Source of the DNA: a virus
Length of the DNA: 64,000 nucleotides
Strand: one strand, 5' to 3'
Virus record (IMG/VR): IMGVR_UViG_3300025168_014097
Coordinates: 17,686 to 81,685 of that record
Part shown: piece after piece, positions 1 to 23,193 of the stretch
How positions within the stretch are numbered: position 1 is the stretch's first letter
How the letters are laid out: the number at the start of each line of letters is the position of its first letter
The notes under the pieces: generated by a model
What the model was told of the DNA's origin: nothing
Databases searched by the model: none
Seen by the model: the letters and a program-made list of their open reading frames with translations, nothing else
Made by a program: the position numbers and the translations under genes

Positions 1-691
1 AATACGCCTTGATCGCGTCATCTATATGATTATAGGTTCTAACAGAATTTAAGTTTCCATGTCGTACTTCATATATTCCATTTTTCTCTCCTTTTGCGAT
101 TTGACGTGCAAACGATGATACTGCAAATTCTTTTCCTCTTCTAGCTCCTTCATGACTAAACATTCGAGTAGTTATAATTTTCATTCCAAACGCTTTGTGA
201 TAATATTGAGACATTAAATCATGTCCTACTTTCGATATTGAATATGGATTAGCTGGTCGAATTGGATTATTTTCAGTTATTGGAATTTCATGTGGTTCTG
301 GATTACCATATACCTCACTTGTAGACACACTTATTATAACCGGATCCATTTCATTTGATTTTATTGATTCTAATAAATGAGTTGTTCCCAATACATTTGT
401 ATGCAATGTTACAATTGGATTTTTGAAGCTAGATTCTGGAAAACTTTGAGCTGCAAAGTGAAATACTTTATCCGGTTTGGATAGCTTAATCGCTCTATCA
501 ATACTAGCATAATCCATTAAATCGCCTCCATAAAGTACAACTCTCGGATTGTCGATTAGATGCTCTATATTTGTAGTATCTTCCATCCATCTTTTAAACC
601 CATAAATTTGATCATCTGTGTGTTCCAGAATATAGTCTGCCATATGGCTACCTACAAATCCTGTAATGCCTGTGATAAATATTTTACTCAT
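1..691 (-). CDS. NDP-sugar 4,6-dehydratase, GDP-mannose dehydratase type (partial, C-terminus off window)
   Basis: Short-chain dehydrogenase of the sugar-nucleotide epimerase/dehydratase family; the likely reaction is NAD-dependent conversion of GDP-mannose to GDP-4-keto-6-deoxymannose. About 230 residues are present; the 3' end lies beyond base 1. Seen directly: Rossmann motif TGITGFVGSH at residues 7-16, FHFAAQSF, the STSEVYG strand, a YSISK catalytic Tyr/Lys pair, and TRMFSHEGARRG, which is characteristic of GDP-mannose dehydratases. The start is the ATG at 691, giving MSKIFITG. It is the last gene of the sugar island in this window and overlaps the end of the epimerase gene upstream by a few bases. 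An RmlB-type dTDP-glucose dehydratase is the main alternative. Confidence 0.85.
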   Translation of the reverse strand, partial: MSKIFITGITGFVGSHMADYILEHTDDQIYGFKRWMEDTTNIEHLIDNPRVVLYGGDLMDYASIDRAIKLSKPDKVFHFAAQSFPESSFKNPIVTLHTNVLGTTHLLESIKSNEMDPVIISVSTSEVYGNPEPHEIPITENNPIRPANPYSISKVGHDLMSQYYHKAFGMKIITTRMFSHEGARRGKEFAVSSFARQIAKGEKNGIYEVRHGNLNSVRTYNHIDDAIKAY

Positions 692-1166
692 TTTTATCTC
701 TTCCCCATAGAATTGGATTATTATGTGGCCATTTGAAATTCCACGATGGATCATTCCAATGTACAACAAATTGATTTTCTATATCATTATAAGAACCCTC
801 AAACGCTTGCTTGTAATGGAACGTGCATGTATCACTTAATACAAAATGACCATTTGCACAACCTGGAGGAACCAATACTTGTTTTCTATTAGCATCTGAT
901 AATACAAACCATTCTGATTCACCGTAGGTTTCTGACTCCTTACGACAATCAGCTACAACTAGATAGAATTCACCCTGCACACAATTGATCAGCTTCCATG
1001 TTTTATCATCACCGTGTAATCCTCGCAGTACATCTTTTTTAGAATGTGAAAACTTATCCAATCTCCAATTCAAATCTGGATAATCATCACTGGTCCACGT
1101 TGTGTATATGTCTCCACGAAAGTCTTCATGATGAGTTGGATTAAAAGTTTTTAGATCTTGAATCAT
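684..1166 (-). CDS. dTDP-4-dehydrorhamnose 3,5-epimerase-like cupin (RmlC family)
   Basis: About 160 residues, close to but shorter than typical RmlC (about 180). The family epimerises 4-keto-6-deoxy sugar nucleotides. Seen: an early RGDIYTTW segment, the RGLHGD motif carrying the expected catalytic His, GEFYLVVADCR in the core beta barrel, and PPGCANGHFVLSD. I chose the ATG at 1166, which forms an ATGA overlap with the stop of the preceding epimerase gene; a longer reading to 1202 would add 12 residues unlike the family. Together with the flanking dehydratase and reductase it suggests a 6-deoxysugar pathway. Substrate nucleotide (GDP or dTDP) is not decidable from sequence. Confidence 0.82.
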   Translation of the reverse strand: MIQDLKTFNPTHHEDFRGDIYTTWTSDDYPDLNWRLDKFSHSKKDVLRGLHGDDKTWKLINCVQGEFYLVVADCRKESETYGESEWFVLSDANRKQVLVPPGCANGHFVLSDTCTFHYKQAFEGSYNDIENQFVVHWNDPSWNFKWPHNNPILWGRDKNE

Positions 1167-2071
1167 GCAACTACCTCTTCTGATACATTCTCCAGATACC
1201 ACTCAATGGTTTTACGGACACCTTCTTCAAAACTAGTTTGTGGTGTGAATCCATATTTTTTTGCTCGACTTGTATCTAATACTCTTCTCATATCACCTTC
1301 TGGTTTTTCTGGCGAATATTCAATAGTTCTATCAAAATAATTAGCTACTATTTCAGCCACAGCTTTGATTGATATACCATGTCCGCTAGCTAAGTTTACT
1401 GGTTCAGTAACTTTATTTTCTACCATATGAATCATTCCCTGAGCTACATCTTCTGAATAGATTAAATCTCTAACGGGTGCGCCAGTTCCCCAAACGTTTA
1501 GTATTTCATTCAAATGTCCTTTCTTAATTAAAGATGGAACAACCATTGAATGCTCACCAAAATTATCATGCGGTCCATATACATTTGCAGGTCTTACTAT
1601 TGATACTTTATTCCAATCGTTTTCAATTGCATATGCTTGTGCTTGCAATTCACCCATTCTCTTTGCCCAAGCTGGGAATGTATCATTTTTTGTAGGAAAT
1701 GTTTTCCACACATCATCTTCGGTTAATACTTCAGCTTGCTCATATACTCCAACAGAACTTGTATACAAATACCATTCTACTCCTGCATCTTTAGCAGCTT
1801 CCATCATATTAGTGTTAAACTGTAACATTGGTACAAAGTATCTTGCTGGTTTTTCTACAGCTGTTTGTGGACTACCTTTGATACCTGCTAGATGCATTAC
1901 GATATCCATTCCTTTACATATTTCTTGACATACACATCTTTCTCTTAGATCTGTTGGTAGGTCTGTTGGATATACACGTGCACCTTTTTCTTGTAACATT
2001 TTTACTAATGATTTTCCAATCATTCCGTTAGCACCCGTTACTAATATTTTTTTATCTTTTAAATTTATCAT
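1163..2071 (-). CDS. NAD-dependent epimerase/reductase, GDP-L-fucose synthase-like
   Basis: A 302-residue extended SDR enzyme. Seen: TGANGMIGKSL near residue 13 for NAD(P) binding, MHLAGIKG, YLYTSSVGVY, the IVRPANVYGPHDNF segment, and VWGTGAPVRDLIYSEDVAQ, a pattern common to GDP-fucose synthase and UDP-sugar epimerases. Odd point: at the canonical YxxxK site the sequence reads PAWAKRMGE, so the Tyr position is Pro while the Lys is kept. Either the Tyr role is taken by another residue or the chemistry differs. It sits between a methyltransferase gene and the RmlC-like gene. Assignment to the fold is firm; the exact reaction is inferred from neighbours. Confidence 0.8.
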   Translation of the reverse strand: MINLKDKKILVTGANGMIGKSLVKMLQEKGARVYPTDLPTDLRERCVCQEICKGMDIVMHLAGIKGSPQTAVEKPARYFVPMLQFNTNMMEAAKDAGVEWYLYTSSVGVYEQAEVLTEDDVWKTFPTKNDTFPAWAKRMGELQAQAYAIENDWNKVSIVRPANVYGPHDNFGEHSMVVPSLIKKGHLNEILNVWGTGAPVRDLIYSEDVAQGMIHMVENKVTEPVNLASGHGISIKAVAEIVANYFDRTIEYSPEKPEGDMRRVLDTSRAKKYGFTPQTSFEEGVRKTIEWYLENVSEEVVA

Positions 2072-2075
2072 ATCT

Positions 2076-2858
2076 TTACTCTACTACAAAATAAGAAACT
2101 CTTGATGCAAATTTATATCGTTTCAATGTTATATTATTCAATCCAAAAACTTCCATTAATGCTAATGTTTCACCTGGTGAATCTGGATCATTTAATTCAT
2201 CAAAAGCCACTACACTACCTTTTGTAAGTCGTGGTCTGATTGCTTCCAAACACTCCTTGGTAGGTTTATATAAATCAAAATCAAAATATGCTAATGATAT
2301 GATAGTCTCTGTATTGTCTTCTAGGTATTTATGTATTGTTTTAGTTGCATCACCTTTTACTAATTCAAATTTCTTAATATGTGATAAAGGATTATCATCC
2401 TCAATATTCTGGACTACTTTGGATAAGTATTTATCATAGTCATCTGTAAGTGCTAATCCTCCTTCAACCATCAGAGATGATTCGCCATCTTCTGGTGTAA
2501 TTTCTGGAAACCCTTCGAAGGTGTCAAATGCTACTATCTTTTTATGTCTATTGAAAGGTTCGTATATACCACGGAGGGCTGCAAATAATGCTGCATTGTG
2601 TCCCCATCTAGTCCCAAGATCCATCACAATACCATGTACATCAATTTGTTTTTGATATATGTGATTCATAAATAAAATCCTAGATAGATTTTTTGAATTT
2701 AAAAATAATCCTAGATTTGGTAGTACTTGTTCTTTCGGTATCGGACATTCTCTCAATAATTCGTATAATTCGAGTCGTTTCTTTGTTTCTAATTTATTCT
2801 CATACTCACCATAAAAAGGGTCTTGGCCGTTTGCATGCTTTGTGTTGTTGTCAGTCAT
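2076..2858 (-). CDS. TylF/MycF-like SAM-dependent O-methyltransferase
   Basis: 260 residues resembling macrocin-O-methyltransferase family proteins, which methylate sugar hydroxyls. Seen: the SAM-binding strand DLGTRWGHNAALFAAL, FDTFEGFPEI, a FDFDLYKPTKECLEAI segment matching the family's metal/catalytic region, and GSVVAFDELND. A strong ribosome site (AAAGGAG) precedes the ATG. The neighbours are sugar-nucleotide enzymes, so a sugar methyl ether is the likely product. Family confidence is good; acceptor unknown. Confidence 0.82.
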   Translation of the reverse strand: MTDNNTKHANGQDPFYGEYENKLETKKRLELYELLRECPIPKEQVLPNLGLFLNSKNLSRILFMNHIYQKQIDVHGIVMDLGTRWGHNAALFAALRGIYEPFNRHKKIVAFDTFEGFPEITPEDGESSLMVEGGLALTDDYDKYLSKVVQNIEDDNPLSHIKKFELVKGDATKTIHKYLEDNTETIISLAYFDFDLYKPTKECLEAIRPRLTKGSVVAFDELNDPDSPGETLALMEVFGLNNITLKRYKFASRVSYFVVE

Positions 2859-2877: not shown

Positions 2878-3981
2878 TTATTTTTCCCAAACTAGTGCTG
2901 GGATTTCTTTGTTCCATCCAAAAGCTATTACCCAAGCCCAAAATCTTAACCTACCTTCGATCAAATCAAATTGAGTATCGTTTACACGCTTGAGCCTGAT
3001 AGGCTTTAGGAATATTCCTTGTTCTATTTCTTCTGATAATTCTATTGGGGATGGCGTCATTCCCATTGCATTTTCTTTTGCTTCTTCTATTGTTTGATAT
3101 ACTTTACGATTGTAGTCATTAGAAACTCTAATCTGCTTTGTATCTATATTTCTTGTCGGTGTTACCAACTGTACTGACATTGATTCATAATCATGGTCTG
3201 TTAATTCTATATCAGCTGATTTTGCATTTTCCAATGCACGTGATGGTTTTGACGTATTTGGGATTACTATTACGTTTGGATCTTGTATCAACCACCTTAA
3301 AACTATTTGTCCTGGAGTACATTTATATTTCTCTGAAAGAGCATTTAGATATTCTGATTGGTATGATCCATTTGCCAACTTTCCTTGTGCTAATGGACTA
3401 TATGCGATGAGCTTGATATCATTATTTTCACAGAAGGGTAATATGTCCTTCTCTACTGACCGTTCAAAAAAATTATATTCTGCTTGTATGCAAGCTAAGT
3501 GATGACCTTCAGAAGTTAATGCAGTAACCGCATCTTGTGCTTCTGATAGTAGAAAATTACTGACACCTACATGTCTAACCTTCCCTTCCTTTACTAAAGT
3601 ATTCATTGCTCTCATCGTTTCACTAATTGGGAAATTTGGATTTGGCCAATGTACTTGGAATAGATCGATTCGGTCTGTTTGCAATCTTATAAGACTATCT
3701 TCAGCTGATTTTATAACACCTTCGTATGTAGTATCGTTTGGAGATACTTTACTTGCTAAAAATACTTTTTCTCTACCTATTTTTTTCAATGCAGATCCCA
3801 ATAAAGTTTCAGATAATCCATCTCCATATACTGGTGCAGTATCTATAAAATTTACACCATTATCTACAAAGCATGATAGTGTTAGGTCTAGATTCTTTCC
3901 ATCTTCCTTATCTGGTAGGTGGAATCCAGTACCAAAACCTATTGCAGAGACGCTATCCGATCCTAAGTTACGATAAATCAT
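2878..3981 (-). CDS. Aldo/keto reductase fused to a C-terminal ParB-like domain
   Basis: 367 residues in two parts. Residues 1 to about 272 are a (beta/alpha)8 aldo/keto reductase: GFGTGFHLP, DTAPVYGDG (Asp and Tyr of the tetrad), ASKVSP (Lys), QVHWPNP (His), and IPNTSKPSRALENAKS for NADPH. Residues about 273-367 read like a ParB/sulfiredoxin-type N-terminal domain: a run of polar residues, a helix ending in SEEIEQG, then FLKPIRLKRV, FDLIEGRLRFWAW (the GxRRxxA-like site) and NKEIPALVWE. I know the two families separately; their fusion here is a direct reading, and its purpose is unknown. The gene overlaps the transketolase gene upstream by one base. Confidence 0.82.
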   Translation of the reverse strand: MIYRNLGSDSVSAIGFGTGFHLPDKEDGKNLDLTLSCFVDNGVNFIDTAPVYGDGLSETLLGSALKKIGREKVFLASKVSPNDTTYEGVIKSAEDSLIRLQTDRIDLFQVHWPNPNFPISETMRAMNTLVKEGKVRHVGVSNFLLSEAQDAVTALTSEGHHLACIQAEYNFFERSVEKDILPFCENNDIKLIAYSPLAQGKLANGSYQSEYLNALSEKYKCTPGQIVLRWLIQDPNVIVIPNTSKPSRALENAKSADIELTDHDYESMSVQLVTPTRNIDTKQIRVSNDYNRKVYQTIEEAKENAMGMTPSPIELSEEIEQGIFLKPIRLKRVNDTQFDLIEGRLRFWAWVIAFGWNKEIPALVWEK

Positions 3982-4874
3982 TATATATCTCTAATCTTAG
4001 TAATTATTGAATCAACATCTATTCCATATTTTTGATGTAGCCATTTTCTATCTCCATACTCAAAATATTGTTTATCTTCCAATGCTATCCTTTTCAGTTT
4101 AATAGAGAGGTTATTGTCTGTGATGAACTCGCTGATTGCACTACCAATTCCACCAGTTATTGAATTTTCTTCAATGGTGATAATTTGTCGAGCGTGATAT
4201 ATTAATTGTTCTAAATTATTTGGTAATGGACTTATTCTAATTAAATCTATCAATCCATACTTTAATTCCTTTGCAACTTCTAATGCTACATGAGTCATGT
4301 ATCCAGTACTTATAATAACTGTATCATCAAATTCGCGTATTTCATTTGCAGCTTCACATCCATCCGTATACAATTCTGGGAATGTTCCTTTATCAATTCT
4401 TACATAAGCTGGTGATGAATTGTTATAAACTTTTTGTGCACAATCTTTAGCTGACTCAGCATCGGATGGGTTAAAAATTTTCATCTCAGGCATTACTCTC
4501 ATAACACCTATATCATGTATTGCATGATGAGTTGGTCCATCTTTGGAAAATGACAATCCTGCTCCACATCCTATTATAGTAACATCTAAATTCATACTAC
4601 ATATATTTGCTTTTATATGCTCATAACACCTCATTGTAATGAACGGAATTATAGAATACACGAATACTTTTTTTCCAGCTAACGCTAACCCAGTTGCTAT
4701 TAATACCATGTTTTGTTCTTGTACACCCACATTTATGAATTGGTCTGGAAAATCTTTTTTATATTTTCTAATACTGAACGCATCTGCATCCGCCGTTATG
4801 AATACTACGTTTTTATCTTTTGCTGCAATATCATATATTTCGTCGAAGAAAGCATCTCTAATATCTATACCCAT
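3981..4874 (-). CDS. Transketolase C-terminal subunit-like (TPP pyrimidine-binding half)
   Basis: 297 residues matching the second half of split transketolases and DXPS-like enzymes. Seen: FINVGVQEQNMVLIATGLAL with the catalytic Glu (VQEQ) that activates thiamine diphosphate, SFSKDGPTHHAIHDIGVMR, and a C-terminal transketolase domain around IITIEENSITGGIGSAI. The partner half is the upstream gene, overlapping by 10 bases. Split transketolases are known in cell-surface polysaccharide clusters, which fits this location. Start at 4874 begins MGIDIRDAF. The sugar substrate cannot be read. Confidence 0.87.
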   Translation of the reverse strand: MGIDIRDAFFDEIYDIAAKDKNVVFITADADAFSIRKYKKDFPDQFINVGVQEQNMVLIATGLALAGKKVFVYSIIPFITMRCYEHIKANICSMNLDVTIIGCGAGLSFSKDGPTHHAIHDIGVMRVMPEMKIFNPSDAESAKDCAQKVYNNSSPAYVRIDKGTFPELYTDGCEAANEIREFDDTVIISTGYMTHVALEVAKELKYGLIDLIRISPLPNNLEQLIYHARQIITIEENSITGGIGSAISEFITDNNLSIKLKRIALEDKQYFEYGDRKWLHQKYGIDVDSIITKIRDI

Positions 4875-5686
4875 TTTAGAATCTCCTCTTTTAATTCTAC
4901 TTCAGCTAAATCAAATTCTTCATCTGTTGGAACAGAGTGGTGCCATTTTATTCCAGATTCCATAAATGAAACTCCTTTTCCTTTTACGGTGTCTGCTATA
5001 ATAACTGTTGGTTTATTTATTTTTAGATATCGGTGTTCTAAGCCATGACATATTGAATCGTGATTATGGCCGTCTATTGTTTCAACATTCCAACCACAAG
5101 CTGTAAATTTTTCTTCAAGATTATCATTTTCGATAAAATCTGTAACGGATAGTCTATTTCTATCAACAATCACAGTCAAGTTAGTTACATTTTTCTGAGC
5201 TGCAAACATGACGGACTCCCAAATGGATCCTTCTTCACATTCTCCATCTCCCACTAAAGAATACATGTGTTGATCTGGTTTTGCCATAGCTAATCCAGTT
5301 GCAATTCCAATCGCATGTCCGAGTGATCCAGTGTTTGTTTCTACTCCTGGTATATTAAAGTCTAATTGTCCACCATAAATACTACCATCAATTCCATACA
5401 TTGCTATTTCAGATTTAGATATGATTCCAAGATCAGCTAAGATTGCATATATTCCCAAACACGCGTGTCCTTTACCTACTATTAATCTATCCCTATCTTC
5501 CCAATCTGGATCGTTAACTCTGTAGCAAAATGCACTTGGTCCGTAGTACAAAGCTACTAATATATCCATACAAGAATATATTCCTCCAAAATGTCCGAGT
5601 CGAGCTTGTTTTATCATTTCCAAAACTTTTAATCTCATCTCAGCTGATTTTTTCTGCAAACTTCCTGTTGGATATAAATTATCCAT
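4865..5686 (-). CDS. Transketolase N-terminal subunit-like (TPP diphosphate-binding half)
   Basis: 273 residues covering the first domain of transketolase. Seen: ARLGHFGGIYSCMDILVAL, GKGHACLGIYA, TGSLGHAIGIATGLA, and the thiamine-diphosphate motif VGDGECEEGSIWE continuing to VIVDRNRLS (GDG-x-N pattern). It is complete for a split subunit. With the downstream half it should form an alpha2beta2 enzyme that moves a two-carbon ketol unit. The stop of the upstream acetolactate-synthase-like gene overlaps its start by one base, implying translational coupling. Confidence 0.88.
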   Translation of the reverse strand: MDNLYPTGSLQKKSAEMRLKVLEMIKQARLGHFGGIYSCMDILVALYYGPSAFCYRVNDPDWEDRDRLIVGKGHACLGIYAILADLGIISKSEIAMYGIDGSIYGGQLDFNIPGVETNTGSLGHAIGIATGLAMAKPDQHMYSLVGDGECEEGSIWESVMFAAQKNVTNLTVIVDRNRLSVTDFIENDNLEEKFTACGWNVETIDGHNHDSICHGLEHRYLKINKPTVIIADTVKGKGVSFMESGIKWHHSVPTDEEFDLAEVELKEEILKWV

Positions 5687-7341
5687 TATACATTTCCTCC
5701 AAAAGGTTCTATAATTTTTTGATTACAGTCACAAACAACTTCTACCAACATAGGTGTATTAGTTGAAAATATTTTTTTAAGATCCGATTCAATATTATTA
5801 TAATCTTCAATAATATAAAATGGCAACTCAAACGCTGCAGCTACTTTTTTAAAATTCAATACCGTATCATCATCTGTATATCTAGCACCAGTCATATCAT
5901 CTTGCGATTTTCGGATAGATGCGTATCCACCGTTATTTATTACAAATGTTTTTATGTTTAGATTGTTATACGATATAGTTCGCAACTCTTGTATATTCAA
6001 TTCAATTGAACCATCTCCTACAATAGTAATTACCTGAGAGTCTGGTTGAGTTGCGCTAGCTCCTATGGATAAAGGTACTGCTAATCCCATACTATAAAAA
6101 GCTCCAGAAGTTAAATCTCGCTGTCCTTGTTTTAGTTTAAGTGTTTGAGATACTGCATAATTAGAACTTCCCGCATCACTAACAAATACTGCATTTTCAG
6201 CTGCATACTTACTTACAGTTTGTAAAAAACGGTATGAGTTTATTGGATTTCCTATCTGCTCTGTAGTTACAATTGGATTGGATGTTTGATATTCTTTACA
6301 TGTATCTAACCATCCACTATATCGATTCCACTCAGTGGTTTTTTCAATCTCTGAATTCAGCTCAGTCATAAATAATTTCAAATCAACTTGTAATGGAATA
6401 TCAACTTTAAGACCTGGTTTTTTCATTTCAGTTTTATCAATATTTACCATTATTAGTTTTTTCACAGATTCAAAATAATTATACTCCGGACCTGCCTGTG
6501 CATGGGTTAGACTAGTTCCTAGAGCTAATACTAAATCACATTCCTTCATAATTTTAGATGATGATAAATTTCCTCTTATACCACCCATTCCAAAATAACA
6601 CTCATCTTCATCTGTTAGAATATCATTAGCTAATCTTGCAGATATTGCTGGAATTCTCAATTCGTTCAGTAAGAATCTTAACTCGTCAATACTATCAGAT
6701 GTTCTGACTCCTTGTCCAAATACAACCAAAGGTTTTTTACACTTACGCAGTTCAGTCAATACTTTTCCTATATTAATTTTTTTGCTTTTATGTTGATGTG
6801 GTTTAAATCCTTTTAAATTAGAGATATTGATTTCTTGTGATTGTACATCGAATGGAATATCTAACCAAACTGGTCCTGGTCTTCCTGTCGTTGCTTCGTG
6901 AATAGCTTTTTCTAAATGAAATCGAATATCATTTGGATCATCAACACGAACTGCATATTTTGTTATATTTTTTACATTGTCAATAATATTGAATCCTTGA
7001 ATACCAAATGTTCTAGCTTTATCTGATAACTGTTTAGTTCCTACTTGTCCTGATATTACGAGTACTGGTGCTGAGTCCACCCACGCTTCCGCTACACCAC
7101 TAATTGCATTCGTTCCACCAGGTCCGGTTGTTGCTATAACAACTCCTACATCATTCAAAAGTTTAGAATATGCAGAAGCCATTCCAACAGCTGCAGCTTC
7201 GTGTCTTGCACAAATATATCTCATACCTTTTTGATGAGCAAATGCATCATCTAAGTATATAGAACCAGTACCCGAAAGCATGAATACATTCTTTACTCCA
7301 TGATTATTTAAGAATTCAGCTATAAATTCTGATGCATTCAC
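5686..7341 (-). CDS. Thiamine-diphosphate enzyme, acetolactate synthase-like
   Basis: 551 residues, the normal length for the acetohydroxyacid synthase/pyruvate decarboxylase group. Seen: VKNVFMLSGTGSIYL, CARHEAAAVGMASAYSK (the activating Glu), ATTGPGGTNAISGVAEAW, a central domain with LVVFGQGVR, and the C-terminal TPP motif VGDGSIELNIQELRTI running to VINNGGYASIRK. In the sugar-cluster setting a possible role is adding a two-carbon branch to a keto sugar, as described for YerE-type enzymes; branched-chain amino acid synthesis is the textbook alternative. No regulatory small subunit is nearby. Confidence 0.87.
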   Translation of the reverse strand: MNASEFIAEFLNNHGVKNVFMLSGTGSIYLDDAFAHQKGMRYICARHEAAAVGMASAYSKLLNDVGVVIATTGPGGTNAISGVAEAWVDSAPVLVISGQVGTKQLSDKARTFGIQGFNIIDNVKNITKYAVRVDDPNDIRFHLEKAIHEATTGRPGPVWLDIPFDVQSQEINISNLKGFKPHQHKSKKINIGKVLTELRKCKKPLVVFGQGVRTSDSIDELRFLLNELRIPAISARLANDILTDEDECYFGMGGIRGNLSSSKIMKECDLVLALGTSLTHAQAGPEYNYFESVKKLIMVNIDKTEMKKPGLKVDIPLQVDLKLFMTELNSEIEKTTEWNRYSGWLDTCKEYQTSNPIVTTEQIGNPINSYRFLQTVSKYAAENAVFVSDAGSSNYAVSQTLKLKQGQRDLTSGAFYSMGLAVPLSIGASATQPDSQVITIVGDGSIELNIQELRTISYNNLNIKTFVINNGGYASIRKSQDDMTGARYTDDDTVLNFKKVAAAFELPFYIIEDYNNIESDLKKIFSTNTPMLVEVVCDCNQKIIEPFGGNV

Positions 7342-8270
7342 TATTGGTCTCCTTTTGAAGTTCTTGGCGTCACACTATGTTTTGGCTCTGCTTTATTTTC
7401 TACTCTATCAGCTTCATATTTCCACTTCGAATCACCTAATAACTTTTCTAATTCATCTTCCTTGATTTCATAGAAATTTTCTGATGCTGGGAAAACTCCA
7501 CCTCTTACCTCATCTCTATATTGTTCTAACGATGATTTAATTAACTGTCCTGCTTCACAATATCTCTTTACAAATTTAGATTTAAAGTCCCAGAATAATC
7601 CTATTAAGTCATGCATGATTACCAATTGACCATCTACTTCATCACCTGCTCCAATACCGTAAACTGGTATATCCAATTCTTTAGCTATCATTGCAGCTGG
7701 TTCTTTTGGCATTGCTTCTAACAATAATGCTGAGCATCCTGCTTCTTGTAAAGCTATAGCTTGATTAAGTACAAGTTCAGCTTGGTCAGCTGTTTTACCT
7801 TGCACTCTATATCCACCCATTTTTGCTCTCGTATGAGGAGTCAATCCTAAATGACTCATAACCATAATCCCAGAATCGCATATAGCTTTAATTCTTTCTA
7901 CCATTGCTCCTTCCACTTTAACCATATCCATTCCCGCTTTTATAAATCTACCAGCGTTTTCTACTGCGCTTTCATTTGATATTTGATATGACATGTAAGG
8001 CATATCACCTATTAAAAATGCATCACTAGCACCTCTTGATACAGACTCTGCTGCTGATATCATTTGATCCATAGTTACTGGGATTGTTGTTTTATGACCT
8101 AATGTAGTCATCCCCAACGAATCACCAACTAGAATTACATCTACTCCTGCTCCATCTGCAATATATGCTTGTGGATAATCGTAAGCTGTTACAGCTACAG
8201 TTTTAATTCCTTCTCTTTTGTGCTTTCTCAACTTAATAATAGTTGTTTTTGTTTTGCTATCTGCTGCCAT
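7341..8270 (-). CDS. panB: 3-methyl-2-oxobutanoate hydroxymethyltransferase-like (PanB)
   Basis: 309 residues; about 265 is usual, the extra being a charged C-terminal tail. The family transfers a hydroxymethyl group from methylene-tetrahydrofolate to 2-oxoisovalerate, making ketopantoate. Residues matching the active site are intact: TAYDYPQA, VGDSLGM (Asp), IGDMPYMSY (Asp), VKVEGA (Lys, Glu), MSHLGLTP, LLLEAMPKEP (catalytic Glu) and YGIGAGDEVDGQLVIMHD. It sits between two TPP-enzyme genes, overlapping the acetolactate-synthase-like gene by one base. Because no other pantothenate gene is visible, I infer a role in the island's own product, but coenzyme A support of the host is possible. Confidence 0.9.
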   Translation of the reverse strand: MAADSKTKTTIIKLRKHKREGIKTVAVTAYDYPQAYIADGAGVDVILVGDSLGMTTLGHKTTIPVTMDQMISAAESVSRGASDAFLIGDMPYMSYQISNESAVENAGRFIKAGMDMVKVEGAMVERIKAICDSGIMVMSHLGLTPHTRAKMGGYRVQGKTADQAELVLNQAIALQEAGCSALLLEAMPKEPAAMIAKELDIPVYGIGAGDEVDGQLVIMHDLIGLFWDFKSKFVKRYCEAGQLIKSSLEQYRDEVRGGVFPASENFYEIKEDELEKLLGDSKWKYEADRVENKAEPKHSVTPRTSKGDQ

Positions 8271-8282
8271 GTTATTTCTCCT

Positions 8283-8813
8283 TTATTTATCGTTATAATG
8301 ATCACCATACTCTATTAGTAATGTCGATCCTTTCCTTTCATATGCCTTTTCAAATTCAGACACAATTTCTTTTGGTTCGTTTAATAGTACTATTTTTATT
8401 TCACCCAATATAGATTGCAATGCTTCTGTATAATCTATAGTGTGTTGGACGCCTCCGTTCAATGGAGTCGTAGACCCAATTGAAGTTCTTATGATTACTT
8501 TTGGTTTCCAATTATTCTCAGTCATTATTTGAAATTTATCTAAATGATTTACTAATTGATCCATTGCTCTCATTAGGAAATCAAACCGTGGATAGCAACT
8601 AATTGGCGTTAAACCTTCCAATGCCATACCAGTTGCTATACCCATTTGTACTTCTTCAAATACTGGCATTTCCAGTCTTTTATCTTCTGATACTGTACTT
8701 AATGTATTAAATATAGCATTGCCACTATACGATACTGATTGACCTAAAAAAATCGTATCATCTTTTTCAGCTAGCCATTCCATTGCTTTAATTATTTCGT
8801 CTTTATATTTCAT
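8283..8813 (-). CDS. 2-oxoacid dehydrogenase E1 beta-like protein (short)
   Basis: About 176 residues, roughly half of a normal E1 beta (about 325), corresponding to its pyrimidine-binding domain. Seen: IFLGQSVSYSGNAIF, MPVFEEVQMGIATGMAL with the catalytic Glu (FEE), SCYPRFDFLMRAMDQLVNH and a GGVQHTIDY segment. I chose the ATG at 8813, with AGGAGAG five bases upstream; the reading frame stays open to 8873 but the extra residues overlap the partner gene. Works with the E1 alpha-like gene just upstream. The transketolase-C-type lipoyl-interacting domain is missing, so it is probably not a true pyruvate dehydrogenase. Confidence 0.8.
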   Translation of the reverse strand: MKYKDEIIKAMEWLAEKDDTIFLGQSVSYSGNAIFNTLSTVSEDKRLEMPVFEEVQMGIATGMALEGLTPISCYPRFDFLMRAMDQLVNHLDKFQIMTENNWKPKVIIRTSIGSTTPLNGGVQHTIDYTEALQSILGEIKIVLLNEPKEIVSEFEKAYERKGSTLLIEYGDHYNDK

Positions 8814-8823
8814 AACATCTCTC

Positions 8824-9447
8824 CTAGAATAAAACCCAATTGCCAGTTCCGTGGTGTGGAAATACTCTATCATATTTATAATAAATTACATCCTCTGGAA
8901 CATCTCTTTTTACACCACCCCAAGTTTCGTCAGTTGGTGTGTTAGTACTCATATTATTATCTTCTACTACAAACTGTAATGGTAAATCAAAATTCTTTGC
9001 ATATTTATATGCTTCATAAAACAATCCACTTTCAAATGTCATATCACCAATGAAACACCAAGTCTTTCTATCACTTCCCATTTCTTTCTGAGCTTTAGCT
9101 GTACCTAATGCTATTGGAATAGTTCCTCCTACAATAGATGAAGTATACAGTTTTGGTTCTTTAGAATAAACACTCATACTTTTTCCACGAACAATTAGGT
9201 CCTTCAAGATTTCTTGATCGACACCGTGTAATAATGCGTGATAATGATTTCTCCAACTAGAGAATACCCAATCATCTGGGTGAACATATTGAAATATATC
9301 TATCAGATTATCTTCATTCCCTCCTGATAAATGAACAGGGCCTGGTATTTTTCCAGCTTCATATATTAATTTAATATCTTCCTCAAAATCTATGAGATCT
9401 TTTGCTGTTAAGTTAACATCTTTATGTTTTATCAATCCTGGCTTCAT
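8824..9447 (-). CDS. 2-oxoacid dehydrogenase E1 alpha-like protein (short)
   Basis: 207 residues, shorter than standard E1 alpha (320-370). Seen: FSSWRNHYHALLHGVD, the SSIVGGTIPIALGTAKA segment, and the thiamine-diphosphate motif FIGDMTFESGLFYEAYKYA running to VVEDNNMSTNTPTD. No phosphorylation loop or E2-binding region is evident. It pairs with the beta-like gene ten bases downstream. Such trimmed E1-like pairs occur in surface-polysaccharide clusters; the acyl or ketol donor and acceptor are unknown. Confidence 0.8.
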   Translation of the reverse strand: MKPGLIKHKDVNLTAKDLIDFEEDIKLIYEAGKIPGPVHLSGGNEDNLIDIFQYVHPDDWVFSSWRNHYHALLHGVDQEILKDLIVRGKSMSVYSKEPKLYTSSIVGGTIPIALGTAKAQKEMGSDRKTWCFIGDMTFESGLFYEAYKYAKNFDLPLQFVVEDNNMSTNTPTDETWGGVKRDVPEDVIYYKYDRVFPHHGTGNWVLF

Positions 9448-10442
9448 GTTAAGTATCCCTCTTTATTTTTATTATACCATTCTATAGTTTTTTTGATTCC
9501 TTCATCAATATTAACTTCAGGCTTCCACCCTAACTCATCAAAAGCTTTTTGTGAATTAAGTGCTAATTTTGTATTAATGCTTGGCTTTGTCAAATCGTGA
9601 GTTATCGTCAGATTTTTTCCTGAGTGTTTTACTATTTTATTTACAATATCTTTTACCGAAATACTTGTACCATTTCCAACGTTATATAACTTGTATATAG
9701 ATTTTTGCAAATTTACAGCCTTATCAATAAAATTTACAACATCTGAAACATATAGTAGGTCTCGCTCAGTTGATCCATCTCCCCAAACTACCATTTCATC
9801 TCCTTCAGTTGCTTCCATTGCTTTTGTAATAGTTGCACCAAACATATGAGATTTTTCTAAATCGTATTTATCGTAAGGGCCGTAAGTGTTTGAATGACGT
9901 ATGACAGTATGTTTAGTTCTTCCTAATTTAGAGTAAAATTCACACATTTTTTCTACATAAACTTTTGTCCACCCAACTCCAAAATATGCATCAAATATAC
10001 CCTCATCTAATGAAAAATCCATCTCAGTTACTGGCGATCTTTCTGGATTGTACATTACTCCACAACTTAGAAATAAAAAGTGGCCAACATTATAATCATA
10101 ACATGCTCGTAACAATAATGAATTCATTACTGCATTGTCAGTAACATGTAGGTATGGCTTTTCTAATATATCCTTTGCTCCAGATGTATTTGCAGCTGCC
10201 ATAATTACAACATCGTATTGTGGTGTACGCTTAAATACATGATCTATTCCTGATTGTGTTGTTATATCACATGAGAGATGTTGTTGACCAGTTACACCTT
10301 TATATCTCCACGGTCTAGTATTACATACAGTCCATACATCATATTGCTCTGGCTTAGATTTATAATAATTGTAGATGTTCATTCCCATGAATCCAGTTGC
10401 ACCTACTATCAATACGCTAGTTTTATCTTGTTTTTTACTCAT
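9444..10442 (-). CDS. GDP-L-fucose synthase-like epimerase/reductase
   Basis: 332 residues, an extended SDR. Seen: VGATGFMGMNIYNYY at residues 13-27, VIMAAANTSGAKD, FLFLSCGVMYNPE, FGVGWTKVYVEKM, RHSNTYGPYDKYD, and VVWGDGSTERDLLYVSDV, close to GDP-fucose synthase. As in the other SDR of this island, the exact YxxxK position lacks Tyr (VGWTK), although Tyr occurs just upstream (AYFGV). It is the first gene after a clear early-type promoter within the preceding glycosyltransferase gene, and its stop overlaps the E1 alpha-like start. Confidence 0.82.
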   Translation of the reverse strand: MSKKQDKTSVLIVGATGFMGMNIYNYYKSKPEQYDVWTVCNTRPWRYKGVTGQQHLSCDITTQSGIDHVFKRTPQYDVVIMAAANTSGAKDILEKPYLHVTDNAVMNSLLLRACYDYNVGHFLFLSCGVMYNPERSPVTEMDFSLDEGIFDAYFGVGWTKVYVEKMCEFYSKLGRTKHTVIRHSNTYGPYDKYDLEKSHMFGATITKAMEATEGDEMVVWGDGSTERDLLYVSDVVNFIDKAVNLQKSIYKLYNVGNGTSISVKDIVNKIVKHSGKNLTITHDLTKPSINTKLALNSQKAFDELGWKPEVNIDEGIKKTIEWYNKNKEGYLT

Positions 10443-10467: not shown

Positions 10468-10496
10468 AATATACGAAATTTATTTCAATTGTGCAA
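10468..10496 (-). promoter_or_regulatory. Early/middle sigma70-type promoter
   Basis: Read on the minus strand: TTGCAC at 10496-10491, a 17-base spacer ending TTTCG, then TATATT at 10473-10468. It lies over the 3' end of a glycosyltransferase gene and 26 bases before the GDP-fucose-synthase-like gene, so it likely drives the nucleotide-sugar half of the island. It matches six other sites in the window almost base for base. Confidence 0.8.
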
Positions 10497-11265
10497 CTTC
10501 CAAGCCATTTATTACACGTTGTACATCATCTTCTATTATGTTGTAATGTGCTGTGATTCCATCCGGTCTGGTTGGTGGTAATTCATCTCGCACGTGTTCT
10601 CCACCCATACATTTATGTGACAGTTGAATGTTAGGTTCAATAATTTCGAAATTATAACCTTTCGTTTTTGCTATATTATTCCAAACAGTCCATTTGGTAT
10701 CCGTAGATGCGTGAAACTCCATATAACCTTGGAGCTCTATAATTTTACTGTGGATAAATGGAATTGCAAGAAAGTCTTCAGTTGTAAACCCTTCCCCCGA
10801 AAATCCATTTACTCCATCTAAAAAAGTAGATTTTACGATACTCACTTTACCGCTATTGCTCTCCATTATACCTTCCCATCCAACCGTTTTCATAGTTACA
10901 TCATCGCTAAAAGGAAGTATGAATTCTCCTTCAGCTGCTGTAGCAAGTTCGTTCCACATCCTCCACAGATCTACATAACCTCCATACCTATCTCCTTTCA
11001 ATAACTTCATATCAAATACTTTATCGTATTTGTCTAATAAATGAAGATTGTCTAAAGTATTATGGTCATCATTATCAACACGTAAAATTATTTCTATCTT
11101 ATCTTTATGTTCTGTAGTATTGTAGATCGATTCTAATGATGGGATCAACCCTCCTTCTTGAGCAAATCCATCATTATGAAAAGTTGGTATCATTCTATTT
11201 CTTGTAGGCATGATTATAGATACCAACTTTTTATATTGGTTTGGTTTGATTGTAAATTCTTTCAT
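10480..11265 (-). CDS. Family 2-like glycosyltransferase
   Basis: 261 residues with a GT-A fold start: KLVSIIMPTRNRM, a long first helix, then IEIILRVDNDDHNT, a WNELATAAEGEFILPFSDDV segment carrying the DxD-like metal site (SDD), and an HKCMGGEHVRDELP tail. The C-terminal region is unlike common GT2 proteins. Sugar donor and acceptor are unknown. It neighbours five other glycosyltransferase-like genes in the same direction. The fold call is fairly safe, the family number less so. Confidence 0.78.
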   Translation of the reverse strand: MKEFTIKPNQYKKLVSIIMPTRNRMIPTFHNDGFAQEGGLIPSLESIYNTTEHKDKIEIILRVDNDDHNTLDNLHLLDKYDKVFDMKLLKGDRYGGYVDLWRMWNELATAAEGEFILPFSDDVTMKTVGWEGIMESNSGKVSIVKSTFLDGVNGFSGEGFTTEDFLAIPFIHSKIIELQGYMEFHASTDTKWTVWNNIAKTKGYNFEIIEPNIQLSHKCMGGEHVRDELPPTRPDGITAHYNIIEDDVQRVINGLEVAQLK

Positions 11266-11266
11266 A

Positions 11267-11965
11267 TTATATATCTACTTTTATCCATTTTAACCATCCT
11301 CGTATTTCTACTGTAAATTTTTCTTCAACATCAGCTGGTCTGAAATCCTTATCAGCATATTGTTGTCCTTCATGTAATATTTTTTCATTATTTTGGAAGT
11401 CTGTATCTGAATCTAGAGGTTTATTATCTTTATGGTGAAATGCATAAAACATTCCTTCATCATTTCTATGCCATTCTATATTTAATAACTCTTTTGCTCG
11501 AGTTCTCGTATCATCATCTTCCTTGCCCCATCCTATATACATAGAATTCAATCCTTTCATTTGATTCCAATGACTACGTGTTAAAATAAATACTCCTCCA
11601 GAATGATCACCAACATCTATGTGGAATTTTTGATATCCTAATGGAATATCCATCTTGCCTAAAGATTTATCATTTTCATCTAAGAATATAACATTTCTAA
11701 CTGGGTATGTTGGTTTATTGTCTATAACATCATATGATACATTGTCTGATGGCCAATGATCCACATCGTGAAATATAAGTACCTCACCCTGTGCTTGTTC
11801 TGCAGCTATATTATAGAGTGTATTCTTTCTAAACTTGTTAGCTCCTAACTGTTCTGATACAATAATCTCATACTCTGTATCTTTAAACTTTTCATGTAAT
11901 CGTGGTAATAACTTTTTAAGATGTTCTTCACGATCTCTGTATGTAATTATAATTGAATACTTCAT
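11267..11965 (-). CDS. Glycosyltransferase with beta-1,4-galactosyltransferase-like (GT7) C-domain
   Basis: 232 residues. Seen: YSIIITYRDREEHLKKLLP, an FHDVDHWP metal-binding DxD, then GGVFILTRSHWNQMKG followed by YIGWGKEDDD. The last block is the signature of the GT7 C-terminal domain (animal B4GalT and bacterial relatives), where the WGxEDDD loop binds the acceptor. It likely adds a hexose or hexosamine to a surface or virion glycan. The start overlaps the following gene's stop by four bases, consistent with one operon. Confidence 0.83.
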   Translation of the reverse strand: MKYSIIITYRDREEHLKKLLPRLHEKFKDTEYEIIVSEQLGANKFRKNTLYNIAAEQAQGEVLIFHDVDHWPSDNVSYDVIDNKPTYPVRNVIFLDENDKSLGKMDIPLGYQKFHIDVGDHSGGVFILTRSHWNQMKGLNSMYIGWGKEDDDTRTRAKELLNIEWHRNDEGMFYAFHHKDNKPLDSDTDFQNNEKILHEGQQYADKDFRPADVEEKFTVEIRGWLKWIKVDI

Positions 11966-12837
11966 GATGAATACTTCTTTGTAAGTTTATCATACCATCC
12001 AGGCACTCGTTCATATTGATGTAGTATTGGAAATATATTTCCATCTTCATTCATTACATATCCATCATCATTCATAATAGGAGCTGGTTCAAGAATGGTG
12101 TCTCCTAATTTAGGTCTCGCCTCTATAAGTGCACCAATCTGTGCAGCCCAATATTCTTTCGTCCCTGCCCATTGAGTTCTATCCTTATATACTGTATTCA
12201 CTATCAGATTAAATGCTGGTTGATCTGAGTGCCATTGACCTACCGTCAGCAGGTATATATGGAGGCATAAATCGATTGCTGTATCTGCATTAGCTGCAAA
12301 GGAGCCCACATTAGATACCATCATATCGTTTGCAAGATTCATAAATGTAATATCTCCAAACGATTTTCTGAAATTGTCTCTGTTCCAAGGTTCATTCCAA
12401 TACTTCACACTTTCCGATGGTGAAATAATCTCTTTGGTCATATTATGATCTAACCATACAGTTGGATCATTCTGGAATATAATATCTCTCACGTCTGTAT
12501 GTATTATGCGATTGAATGTTCTTCCTTCTGATCTAAATTGGCATAGGAGCTGCCACATGTGAAAAAATCGTACATTATGTACTAGTAGATGTGCATTGGA
12601 TGCATTTACTTGACTGCTGTTTGTTATGAAGTTATCTACGACTTGCCCTTTTGCATCTGTCGTTATTTCATATACTTCTATATCATTCTCACGGAGCTCA
12701 TCTATAAGTGCTTTATTAGAGTTATAAGATACCAATATCTTGTCTCCTTTAAATCCACACTGATTAACTGAATTTACCCAATTTTGTATTTGATCGAATT
12801 GATAATCTCCAATCGCTCCTATTATTAAATCCTTCAT
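11962..12837 (-). CDS. Probable glycosyltransferase (GT-A fold, family unassigned)
   Basis: 291 residues. No close family recognised. Features suggesting a GT-A transferase are an N-terminal DLIIGAIGDYQFDQI strand-helix, KILVSYNSN, and RIIHTDVRDIIFQNDP, a DxxD metal-binding style motif, followed by SNVGSFAANADTAIDL and a conserved-looking SDQPAFNLIV segment as in nucleotide-diphospho-sugar transferases that act on glycans. Overlaps of one and four bases with its neighbours place it in the glycosyltransferase operon. Confidence 0.6.
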   Translation of the reverse strand: MKDLIIGAIGDYQFDQIQNWVNSVNQCGFKGDKILVSYNSNKALIDELRENDIEVYEITTDAKGQVVDNFITNSSQVNASNAHLLVHNVRFFHMWQLLCQFRSEGRTFNRIIHTDVRDIIFQNDPTVWLDHNMTKEIISPSESVKYWNEPWNRDNFRKSFGDITFMNLANDMMVSNVGSFAANADTAIDLCLHIYLLTVGQWHSDQPAFNLIVNTVYKDRTQWAGTKEYWAAQIGALIEARPKLGDTILEPAPIMNDDGYVMNEDGNIFPILHQYERVPGWYDKLTKKYSS

Positions 12838-13460
12838 TATATTCCTCTATAGAATTCGTTTTGTGCTTCTTGTTTTGTTATTGATTTATGGTGTTGTATG
12901 GCGTATTTTGCATCGAATGGTAATCTACCGAATGCCTCATATCCATCTAACCGTTCGTGTACTGGTTGTATCCATTTTATGATTCCATTATTTTTATATA
13001 TCCGCATTTGAGCATCTGGCCAGTTAATCCAATTTTTATCATTTACCTGCCAGTTCCACTTCTCTACATGCTCATCAGTGATTCCTTCTACTGTATTCAC
13101 TCTTGGCATCCAGATTGCATCAACTTCATCATTCATCTTTATTATATCAGGTAATATACGAATTAAATCTAAGGGAAGCAACTCATCCGCATCTAAATTC
13201 ACAATCCAATCTCCTGAGCATTTGCTTGTTAAAAAATTCTTCTGTGCTGCAAAGTCTTTATTGAGTGGATGAGTATACCATTTGAAATGGTTGTTACTTC
13301 GCGCATATGAATCACATATGAATTGAACTTTTTTTGTATGAGTCGTTTCATCTAAGACTACGACTACTTCGTCTGAAGTTCTAATATTTTCTAGCGATGT
13401 TAATAGTTCGTTGAGTTCTCTAGCTTCATTACATGCTAGTATTGCATAACTAATTTTCAT
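12837..13460 (-). CDS. Family 2 glycosyltransferase
   Basis: 207 residues. Seen: ISYAILACNEARELNELLTSL, DEVVVVLDETT, HPLNKDFAAQKNFLTSKC, and the DxD-type motif GDWIVNLDADELLP, then MPRVNTVEGI and a WPDAQMRIYKN block. This order matches short GT2 enzymes of the WaaE/KdtX type. The protein ends soon after the second domain (QNEFYRGI), so it is compact. It sits between two other glycan genes and overlaps one of them by a single base. Confidence 0.83.
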   Translation of the reverse strand: MKISYAILACNEARELNELLTSLENIRTSDEVVVVLDETTHTKKVQFICDSYARSNNHFKWYTHPLNKDFAAQKNFLTSKCSGDWIVNLDADELLPLDLIRILPDIIKMNDEVDAIWMPRVNTVEGITDEHVEKWNWQVNDKNWINWPDAQMRIYKNNGIIKWIQPVHERLDGYEAFGRLPFDAKYAIQHHKSITKQEAQNEFYRGI

Positions 13461-14501: not shown

Positions 14502-15806
14502 TTATTCTCCCGCTTTTTGTAAGGTTGGTAACTCAATTGAATCAAATGATGGTAACGTCATTGGTATTTCCGATGCTGGTTTTGGAACATACTTTTCAAC
14601 TAGTTGTGTGAACTTATCATTCATCACATCCATACTGCCATTTTTTGTTATATAATGACGTTGACGTCTTCCCAAATCTTTAATATTTTTATATTTATTA
14701 AATGCATCTTGCATTGCTTTTTTAGCAAATTTATAGTTTGCATAAAACCAAGATGATTCTTTCAATATAACCTTATCCCAGACTGCACTTTCATGAACTG
14801 GAGTTACACTACCGACGAGTCTAACTGAATGTTTTAGAAAGTCCTTGTGTCCGGACCACCACGTTGATATGATTGGCTTTCCACTTGTACTGAATTCTGC
14901 TAATGGTCGCCCATACCCCTCTCCGTGAGTAAATGATACCATAGTTTTTACCTTTGGATGATTGTATAGTGAGTTTACTTCTGAATCTGTTAGTTCACCA
15001 TGAATAAGATAAATCTTTGGTGGATTATCAAATCTATCAGTGATATCTTTAATCTTAGCTTTCATTTGCTCTCTATCAATTATACTGAAGGTTGCATGTG
15101 ATGTTTTTAGAATCATTGCAGGTTGTTTTGATTTACCATCAAACGCACTACAAAATGTTTCAATACATCCTCCGATATCTTTCCTGTCGTGGGTATGACC
15201 TCCTGATAGCCAATGACCCATTTGTAAGAAGCAGAAATCTTCTGGTATTACATCAAGCATTTCTTGAATAGATGTATCTATAGTATTTTTAGAATCGTGC
15301 TTAGTTATGGCAAAATAAGTATCTAGATCCACTCCTTCTAACAAAACTTCTATTGGTTTTTGTAACTGTAGTTTTGCGACCTCATTCCCATTATCCATTT
15401 TGGAATATACAGTCTCTATCAAAGTTTGCTTAGAATGGTGGGAAGGTACAATTATTAGATCCATTCTATTACATCCATCTAACCATTCATTATGTACTAA
15501 TGTAGTTTCCATACCAGCTGTTATTCCTATATTGTAATTCCCTAACGGTTGAAATTCGTTTGGTACTGATAGTTGTACAAATACGTCTGGTTTTGGAAGA
15601 CTACCTGCTTGTGGGTTATGTATTAAATTAGTGATATCACTATCACCTTCTCCTAATGCATTCATTGGAGTGTTTCCCCACCTTAAGCTAATTACCTTTA
15701 TATCAAATTTATCCATTGCAATTAAACTTCTTACAAGATCTCTTGCATGATCACCATATCCTGATCTAGTTGCTATTGGTCCTTGAAATACTAAAAATGG
15801 TCTCAT
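14502..15806 (-). CDS. Family 4-type glycosyltransferase (GT-B)
   Basis: 434 residues with a GT-B layout. Seen: PFLVFQGPIATRSGYGDHARDL at the N-terminus, DVFVQLSVPNEF, IIVPSHHSKQTLIE at the hinge, FLQMGHWLSGG, IYLIHGELTDSEVNSLY, and the C-terminal nucleotide-sugar motif FTHGEGYGRPLAEFSTSGKP, where the family's E-x7-E pattern falls (GEGYGRPLAE). A retaining transferase is expected. Overlaps the upstream GT4 gene by four bases. Confidence 0.87.
   Translation of the reverse strand: MRPFLVFQGPIATRSGYGDHARDLVRSLIAMDKFDIKVISLRWGNTPMNALGEGDSDITNLIHNPQAGSLPKPDVFVQLSVPNEFQPLGNYNIGITAGMETTLVHNEWLDGCNRMDLIIVPSHHSKQTLIETVYSKMDNGNEVAKLQLQKPIEVLLEGVDLDTYFAITKHDSKNTIDTSIQEMLDVIPEDFCFLQMGHWLSGGHTHDRKDIGGCIETFCSAFDGKSKQPAMILKTSHATFSIIDREQMKAKIKDITDRFDNPPKIYLIHGELTDSEVNSLYNHPKVKTMVSFTHGEGYGRPLAEFSTSGKPIISTWWSGHKDFLKHSVRLVGSVTPVHESAVWDKVILKESSWFYANYKFAKKAMQDAFNKYKNIKDLGRRQRHYITKNGSMDVMNDKFTQLVEKYVPKPASEIPMTLPSFDSIELPTLQKAGE

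Positions 15807-21254: not shown

Positions 21255-23193
<1,939 letters not shown>

Follow-up and report, generated by a model that had tools for sequence, protein, structure and literature searches.

The closest described counterparts of the locus discussed here are the YerE-like pathways, those of yersiniose A, erwiniose and caryophyllose, in which thiamine diphosphate (ThDP)-dependent YerE-like enzymes attach 2-oxoacid-derived acyl units to keto-sugars. YerE is fed by a 3,6-dideoxy-4-keto-sugar route (PMC12247030), and ErwE of the erwiniose pathway takes 4-hydroxy-2-oxoacids, not pyruvate (PMC12247030). Related two-subunit enzymes form the C2 branches of antibiotic sugars, and keto-sugar branching by split transketolases has been put forward as a proposal only (PMC12247030). 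The locus lies in a 64,000-nucleotide stretch (the window) of the virus record IMGVR_UViG_3300025168_014097, of which it covers bases 17686-81685 out of 81,685 (81.7 kb), and its core is a gene for a ketopantoate hydroxymethyltransferase (PanB) that abuts a gene for an acetolactate synthase (ALS)-like ThDP enzyme. Comparison with relatives in viruses and cells indicates that these two genes probably form a cassette for making a C-branched sugar. A literature search, mostly at the level of titles and abstract openings, found nothing that links PanB to a YerE-like enzyme or to the synthesis of branched sugars.

The pairing is strict in viruses. A scan of viral contigs with the window PanB gave 68 loci (identified below by L numbers) with PanB identities of 71-100%, a floor that is partly search-made, as a query with one protein picks up its near relatives alone; they include L018, whose PanB and neighbours are identical to those of the window, and near-copies such as L035-L037. 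An ALS-family gene directly adjoins PanB in all 68, lying upstream of it in 48 loci and downstream in the other 20, and these partners are diverse, forming ten groups under 60% identity (71 sequences, three from cell contigs) and reaching down to ~28% identity to the window ALS. Among the best 80 of 362 matches in bacterial genomes are five PanBs of at least 57% identity, four of which (L071, L073, L074 and L075) have an ALS-like neighbour, against a single one (L121) among the other 75. Since L071 and L073 may derive from phages and have been binned with cells (L071 shares gene clusters c111 and c112 with the phage locus L004 and with no other locus shown), the secure cell cases are L074 and L075. 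In Omnitrophota, 43 of 193 genomes have a PanB at E <= 1e-80, and among 20 loci examined for ~1.5 kb on each side, in two of which the open reading frame (ORF) caller labelled no PanB, the only ALS-like neighbour was the one already known. No close PanB was found in the 13 matching records of isolated phages, the best (44.6%) being that of Microcystis phage MaAM05, which has panC and sufBCD nearby and is possibly bacterial sequence; isolate-phage ALS matches are at 25-35% identity (30 of 57 records listed).

A second line of evidence came from anchoring the search on the ThDP gene, where PanB proved to be one of several mutually exclusive partners. The best 80 of 384 loci from a scan with an ALS alignment added 77 newly fetched loci, 52 of them without PanB, which were grouped by gene clusters, with Pfam searches on representatives only. 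With non-redundancy set at 95% ALS identity, there are 105 YerE-like loci, 102 viral plus the three cell contigs L073, L074 and L075 (L071 was excluded, its ALS being cut at 295 aa). Within four genes of ALS, 63 of these have PanB, 25 an HpcH/HpaI aldolase, nine a NeuB-family synthase and eight none, and never two kinds, so that exactly one occurs in 97/105. The ALS-anchored scan alone, which avoids PanB-query bias, gives 30 HpaI, 28 PanB, 10 NeuB and 12 none in the best 80 of 384 (25, 23, 9 and 8 in the 65 non-redundant loci). None of the three was found in 58 control loci, sugar loci anchored on an E1 gene and without ALS, although the partner profiles were built from clusters in the YerE-like loci and distant aldolases in the controls could escape them. 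The NeuB-type representative matches PF03102 at 5.6e-41; that of the HpcH/HpaI group matches PF03328 at 6e-10 and is then usually followed by a short-chain dehydrogenase/reductase (SDR) and an AroB-like cyclase (TIGR04425, 316 bits, cut-off 400). In L158 (3571-7728) and 18 further non-redundant viral loci, this HpaI aldolase and usually an SDR are accompanied by the AroB-like sugar-phosphate cyclase, the gene directly before the YerE-like one, an arrangement that hints at a branch or donor of cyclic, cyclitol-like type. In L172, L196, L202, L223 and L225, a DJ-1/PfpI gene takes the place of these three partners beside the YerE-like gene, and L223 and L202 also carry genes for a cupin and a phosphatase-like protein.

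The PanB, HpcH/HpaI and NeuB-type families are all able to form 4-hydroxy-2-oxoacids, and the aldolase YfaU is, we presume, a member of the HpcH/HpaI family. Side by side, E. coli PanB and YfaU were shown to convert many 2-oxoacids, with formaldehyde, into 3-substituted 4-hydroxy-2-oxoacids (PMC7611260). Whether at least three exchangeable donor makers near a YerE-like carboligase amount to a combinatorial system for branched surface sugars, with the abundant marine viral ‘pantoate transferase’ being largely no vitamin gene, is a generalization for which we see the chances as evenly divided.

The reference structures for the ThDP enzyme are JanthE, a YerE-type enzyme that puts a 2-oxoacid-derived branch on ketones, and 5ahk, which we suspect may be YerE-like itself. 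JanthE (8rph, so named in PMC12188165) is the closest solved structure to the window enzyme, with 286 bits vs 203 for 5ahk. It also ranks first for relatives (461 v 267 bits in L016, 324 v 278 in L003) and comes top in 4/4 representatives, with L005 nearly tied, which places the family closer to YerE-type enzymes than to acetolactate synthase. The three best matches of the predicted model (mean predicted local distance difference test score, pLDDT, 85.8) are likewise JanthE entries (Z 44.9, 44.5 and 44.0), in a structure search that confirms the PanB and ALS families and draws no sharp line between YerE-like and acetohydroxyacid synthase (AHAS) enzymes. By alignment with E. coli IlvI, the Trp that we take to be the site for the second 2-ketoacid in AHAS is missing in 9/9 aligned relatives including the window, which have S, T, F or Y there, and so is RFDDR, presumably an AHAS motif, of which the first Arg is retained in six. 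With both missing in 9/9, the motifs do not support identity as an acetolactate or acetohydroxyacid synthase. The catalytic Glu48 and the GDG (442-444) and NN (469-470) of the ThDP motif are invariant in alignments of 11 and 10 sequences. The window gene annotated as acetolactate synthase is thus proposed to encode a YerE-like carboligase with a role in sugar branching.

Its partner is a PanB by both family profile and fold. It scores 325.8 bits against PF02548 (cut-off 28.7) and exceeds the NCBIfam panB equivalog cut-off (284 vs 207.55), and its predicted model, itself weak (mean pLDDT 70.8, residues 266-309 <50), best matches PanB structures (Z 26-33, with Z 31.0 to 1m3u at 2.8 Å over 248 aligned residues). 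The original prediction took this PanB to be catalytically intact, in keeping with seven active-site positions that are identical in 83/83 aligned sequences. The equivalents of E. coli D45, S46, D84, K112, E114 and E181 (numbered via the 1m3u alignment), presumably metal- and substrate-binding residues, are invariant in the same 83. These are the sequences left for tree building after a 90% identity filter, which removed L071 and L072. The window PanB falls in a main viral clade of 30 rows (support 100/100), next to which L074 (Chloroflexota) and L075 (Omnitrophota), both ALS-linked, cluster with L076 (98/77); from the alignment and tree it is assigned to a separate PanB lineage. A second, divergent viral clade of five rows is joined by a branch with support of 88/55 only. 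It is likewise ALS-linked, with one SDR intervening in L191, and the pairing of PanB with ALS may therefore have more than one origin. A Met (Met187) two residues past the catalytic Glu, within a LE[AG]MP signature, is present in 30/30 main-clade rows, 5/5 of the second clade and 2/2 of L074/L075, that is in 37/37 rows of the ThDP-linked lineage vs 1/46 others (L115). The main clade lacks two residues behind the KVEG loop (30/35 viral-type rows, the other five being the second clade), and the tail is longer in viral-type rows (median 45 vs 19 residues). Window I206 and L216 align with E. coli PanB I202 and I212, positions that were varied in PMC7611260.

From the computed pairing, families, intact active-site positions, PanB exchange and lack of pantothenate genes in the records searched, we infer the substrates, acceptor sugar and destination as follows. 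PanB would hydroxymethylate a small 2-oxoacid with methylene-tetrahydrofolate, giving a 4-hydroxy-2-oxoacid, namely 4-hydroxy-2-oxobutanoate from pyruvate or ketopantoate from 2-oxoisovalerate. The product of pyruvate or 2-oxobutanoate seems the likelier donor, because the quaternary carbon beside the carbonyl of ketopantoate would hinder addition to a ketone. The YerE-like enzyme would decarboxylate this 4-hydroxy-2-oxoacid and attach the hydroxyacyl carbanion at the keto group of a nucleotide-linked keto-deoxysugar, leaving a tertiary alcohol that bears a hydroxylated branch. The ketone within the branch may be reduced by a short-chain reductase encoded next to the pair, and glycosyltransferases would put the branched sugar on a surface or glycan. 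As to the acceptor, a DegT-type gene cluster is present in 63/73 PanB loci. A His in place of the pyridoxal phosphate (PLP)-binding Lys is the mark of RfbH/ColD-type 3-dehydratases, and a Lys that of aminotransferases. Of 65 aligned members, 62 have His and three (e.g. L072) Lys (residue pairs HH 47, HQ 8, HV 7 and K 3). With 480 bits, the L016 member exceeds the RfbH cut-off of 423, and the RmlB-like dehydratase of that locus falls under its own (302 bits, cut-off 365); these two enzyme types make up the 3,6-dideoxy-4-keto-sugar route that supplies YerE. With a YerE-like partner, and an RfbH-type 3-dehydratase and an RmlB-like dehydratase in relatives, the carbon-branched sugar first suggested for this island remains the best reading.

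Several observations weigh against it. JanthE and 5ahk are nearly tied for the L005 group (316 v 313 bits), and the margin is also narrow for the window ALS-like model (Z 44.9 vs 43.2). The DegT/RfbH-type gene usual in relatives was not found in the window record, where the acceptor sugar may differ from that of most relatives. The ordinary PanB locus L121 (1/75) adjoins an ALS-like gene too, and L072, a Marinimicrobia single cell, places its viral-type PanB, the only PanB of its assembly, in a polysaccharide-type locus where no ALS-like gene lies within ~10 kb. Eight of the 105 YerE-like loci lack a partner by the three profiles; in one of these, L185, ALS is directly preceded by an HpaI aldolase, with an HMGL-like aldolase close by, and a DJ-1/PfpI family gene occurs in five, which leaves L182 and the cut locus L218. 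Finally, a DHQ-synthase-like gene (the AroB-like cyclase) directly precedes the ThDP gene in 19/25 HpaI loci, for which the simple donor scheme offers no explanation.

The record encodes a tail sheath, a major head protein, a DNA polymerase and a ribonucleotide reductase, which mark it as a contractile-tailed phage. The minus-strand operon reads SDR2, E1-alpha (E1a), E1-beta (E1b), PanB, ALS-like, transketolase N half (TKTN), transketolase C half (TKTC), aldo-keto reductase (AKR), methyltransferase (MT), SDR1 and RmlC, with gene contacts or overlaps at 9444/9447, 7341, 5686 and 4865/4874 and a gap of 12 bases between PanB and E1-beta. The features, by window coordinates, are:

684..1202, minus strand: RmlC-type 3,5-epimerase (PF00908 1e-35; under the NCBIfam rmlC cut-off)
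1163..2071, minus strand: SDR1, NAD-dependent sugar epimerase (PF01370 3e-39)
2076..2858, minus strand: TylF-like methyltransferase (PF13578 1.4e-5, barely over cut-off; PF05711 7.1e-4, under cut-off)
2878..3981, minus strand: aldo-keto reductase (PF00248 1.9e-66)
3981..4874, minus strand: split transketolase, C-terminal half (PF02779, Transket_pyr, 8e-30; PF02780, Transketolase_C, 2.1e-18)
4865..5686, minus strand: split transketolase, N-terminal half (PF00456 6.7e-32)
5686..7341, minus strand: putative YerE-like ThDP enzyme, annotated acetolactate synthase (all three TPP_enzyme domains)
7341..8270, minus strand: PanB-type ketopantoate hydroxymethyltransferase (PF02548 2.5e-97)
8283..8813, minus strand: short E1-beta-like ThDP subunit, PYR domain, start corrected (Transket_pyr 8.4e-9)
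8824..9447, minus strand: short E1-alpha-like ThDP subunit, PP domain (E1_dh 5.9e-17)
9444..10442, minus strand: SDR2, NAD-dependent sugar epimerase/dehydratase (top NCBIfam model GDP-L-fucose synthase, under cut-off)
10480..13460, minus strand: four upstream ORFs, two with glycosyltransferase family matches and two (10480-11265 and 11962-12837) for which a Pfam search gave no match
11267-11965, minus strand: first glycosyltransferase-family ORF of these four (PF13733/PF02709)
12837-13460, minus strand: second glycosyltransferase-family ORF of these four (PF00535)
14502..17293, minus strand: two group-1 glycosyltransferase-like genes, further upstream (PF00534 1.2e-4, under cut-off, and 5.2e-7)

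The overlapping operon with an E1 alpha/beta-like pair, PanB, an ALS-like enzyme and a split transketolase is therefore present as originally described, with its families matched; the limits then given, 4865-9447, leave outside most of the transketolase C half (3981-4874) and the flanking sugar genes. The aldo-keto reductase (2878-3981) has a C-terminal extension that is weakly ParB_N-like (PF02195 0.0041, under cut-off) and recurs in L321:7992-9104, and a GroEL chaperonin is encoded at 21255-22895 (PHROG 5725, 7.5e-157). Among the PanB loci, a B12-binding radical SAM gene (PF02310, PF04055) near PanB and ALS in L003 (13570-15105) and 15 further loci possibly methyl- or alkyl-modifies a sugar. 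In a single phage, L002, a split HldE-like kinase and nucleotidyltransferase with a sugar epimerase (15117-17055) points to a heptose-like sugar, and a 1158-aa protein (4856-8332) has many GCTDP..NYDPLANTDDGSC-type repeats.

The original prediction also placed the three ThDP systems and PanB in a single pathway, and the most durable of the alternatives follows from it: that they act in sequence on one sugar to give a multiply branched monosaccharide. This agrees with the single operon, with the link of all three ThDP classes to keto-sugar branching (for transketolases by proposal only, PMC12247030) and with the conservation of E1a-E1b-PanB-ALS-TKTN-TKTC in L028/L323, where the first five of these genes keep their order on contig L028 (which continues in L323), with identities of 52-74%, so that the gene set is indeed more than chance. 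L321, which belongs to a phage record of 114 kb, speaks otherwise, as it keeps SDR2-E1a-E1b-TKTN-TKTC, then three ORFs without window counterpart (an SDR, a short ORF and a second AKR), then AKR, MT, SDR1 and RmlC in window order, with SDR2 still beside the E1 pair, and lacks PanB and ALS both between E1b and TKTN and anywhere in its record. As PanB and ALS are adjacent in all 68 viral PanB loci and are both missing here, they seem to be gained and lost as a unit. Of the 62 viral loci from an E1-anchored scan, 51 have RmlC no more than two genes away and 57 have E1b no more than six genes away, but ALS lies within ~8 kb in only four and PanB in four, and the E1a family occurs in 6/68 viral PanB loci (L007, L013, L015, L018, L028 and L056). 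A sequential pathway is thus unlikely, and of the genes first grouped together, PanB and ALS hold together in relatives while the rest are partly scattered.

The E1 pair itself consists of PP and PYR domains only, with no match by Pfam to Transketolase_C, the C-terminal domain that E1 subunits of the alphaKADH2 type have. The E1-beta ORF as listed probably starts too early, an AGGAG preceding the in-frame ATG at 8813-8811. The short window pair is no broken gene, because the viral family is equally short (medians of 211 aa for E1a, n=72, and 182 aa for E1b, n=70); in cyanophage S-SM2 the two are fused in a single 402-residue protein (E1a match 7-199, E1b match 234-398). The transketolase is split, with its N and C halves on adjacent genes. 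It is combined with PanB and ALS in a subgroup of the window, L028/L323 and L073; a scan with the transketolase found nothing beyond the window and L028 contigs, and one with the AKR gave one new contig. By their distribution the E1 genes appear to be mostly their own module, and the E1 and transketolase pairs look like modules separate from PanB and ALS that may act on the same or other keto-sugars. The island holds one member from each of three ThDP classes linked to sugar branching, which the comparative evidence does not join to one product.

Less probable again is that the PanB hydroxy-2-oxoacid serves to acylate an amino sugar, as a pantoyl-like amide, with the ThDP enzyme working in a parallel step. 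L072 would fit, its viral-type PanB lying without a ThDP gene near aminotransferase-, carbamoyltransferase-, ATP-grasp- and formyltransferase-looking genes (L072:5058-15209, judged from first residues only, no family search), but the strict adjacency of PanB and ALS in viruses, the mutually exclusive replacement of PanB by aldolase families and the lack of a DegT aminotransferase in the window record are hard to reconcile with it.

As for the proposal that PanB has been drawn away from pantothenate synthesis, nothing ties it there in the viral records searched, which were without PanC, PanE and IlvD. A further PanB is present in four of the five cell genomes that hold one of the viral or L074/L075 type (L071 and L073 being possibly phage contigs), in G034 ~0.4 kb from panC. 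A role of the pair as auxiliary metabolic genes raising pantothenate and coenzyme A (CoA), by way of acetolactate, 2-oxoisovalerate and ketopantoate, is the least probable alternative, since its support from the panB equivalog score and from a marine study proposing higher pantothenate and CoA from viral pantoate transferase (PMC8940887) is set against PanC, PanE and IlvD each being found in 0/31 viral records (30 chosen from the 68 PanB loci plus the window record, often fragments, and host genes could supply them), a YerE-like partner without the AHAS Trp and RFDDR, the exchange of PanB for aldolase families and a distinct PanB clade with its own signature.

The preferred reading, a two-gene cassette for a C-branched sugar, has consequences beyond this phage. 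In the samples of a marine virome study (PMC8940887), pantoate transferase came first in abundance among viral vitamin genes, and if those enzymes fall in the present PanB clade, the inference of boosted CoA would need revision towards glycan building. The carriers are uncultured, mostly marine phages, whose reported ‘vitamin gene’ would be re-read if PanB builds a branched sugar, and this gives a testable statement on how phages diversify surface sugars. The natural enzyme pair and its donor-swapped relatives also offer a possible route to tertiary alcohols with hydroxylated side chains.

How the island compares with known systems can be stated for each of its parts. With the miharamycin and amipurimycin split transketolases, likened here by literature description, it shares a two-gene transketolase in a sugar pathway, the window pair differing in being phage-borne. 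KbDH-type alpha-keto-acid dehydrogenase pairs (alphaKADH2) also have separate PP and PYR subunits in a sugar locus, and viral relatives usually lie near a 3,5-epimerase-like gene, whereas both phage subunits are truncated, with no C-terminal transketolase domain found, and are fused in S-SM2. The phage PanB has the fold, catalytic residues and family score of PanB of pantothenate synthesis, but differs in its own clade, the LE[AG]MP signature, the loss of two residues behind the KVEG loop in the main viral clade, the longer tail, the ThDP neighbour and a record with no panC or panE. The likeness is closest to the YerE-like pathways, with which the system shares a YerE-type ThDP carboligase, in relatives an adjacent RmlB-like dehydratase and RfbH-type gene, and a hydroxylated 2-oxoacid donor, proposed here as for ErwE; it differs from them in the window record being without an RfbH-type gene, in being phage-borne and in a donor that is proposed to come from PanB and methylene-tetrahydrofolate.

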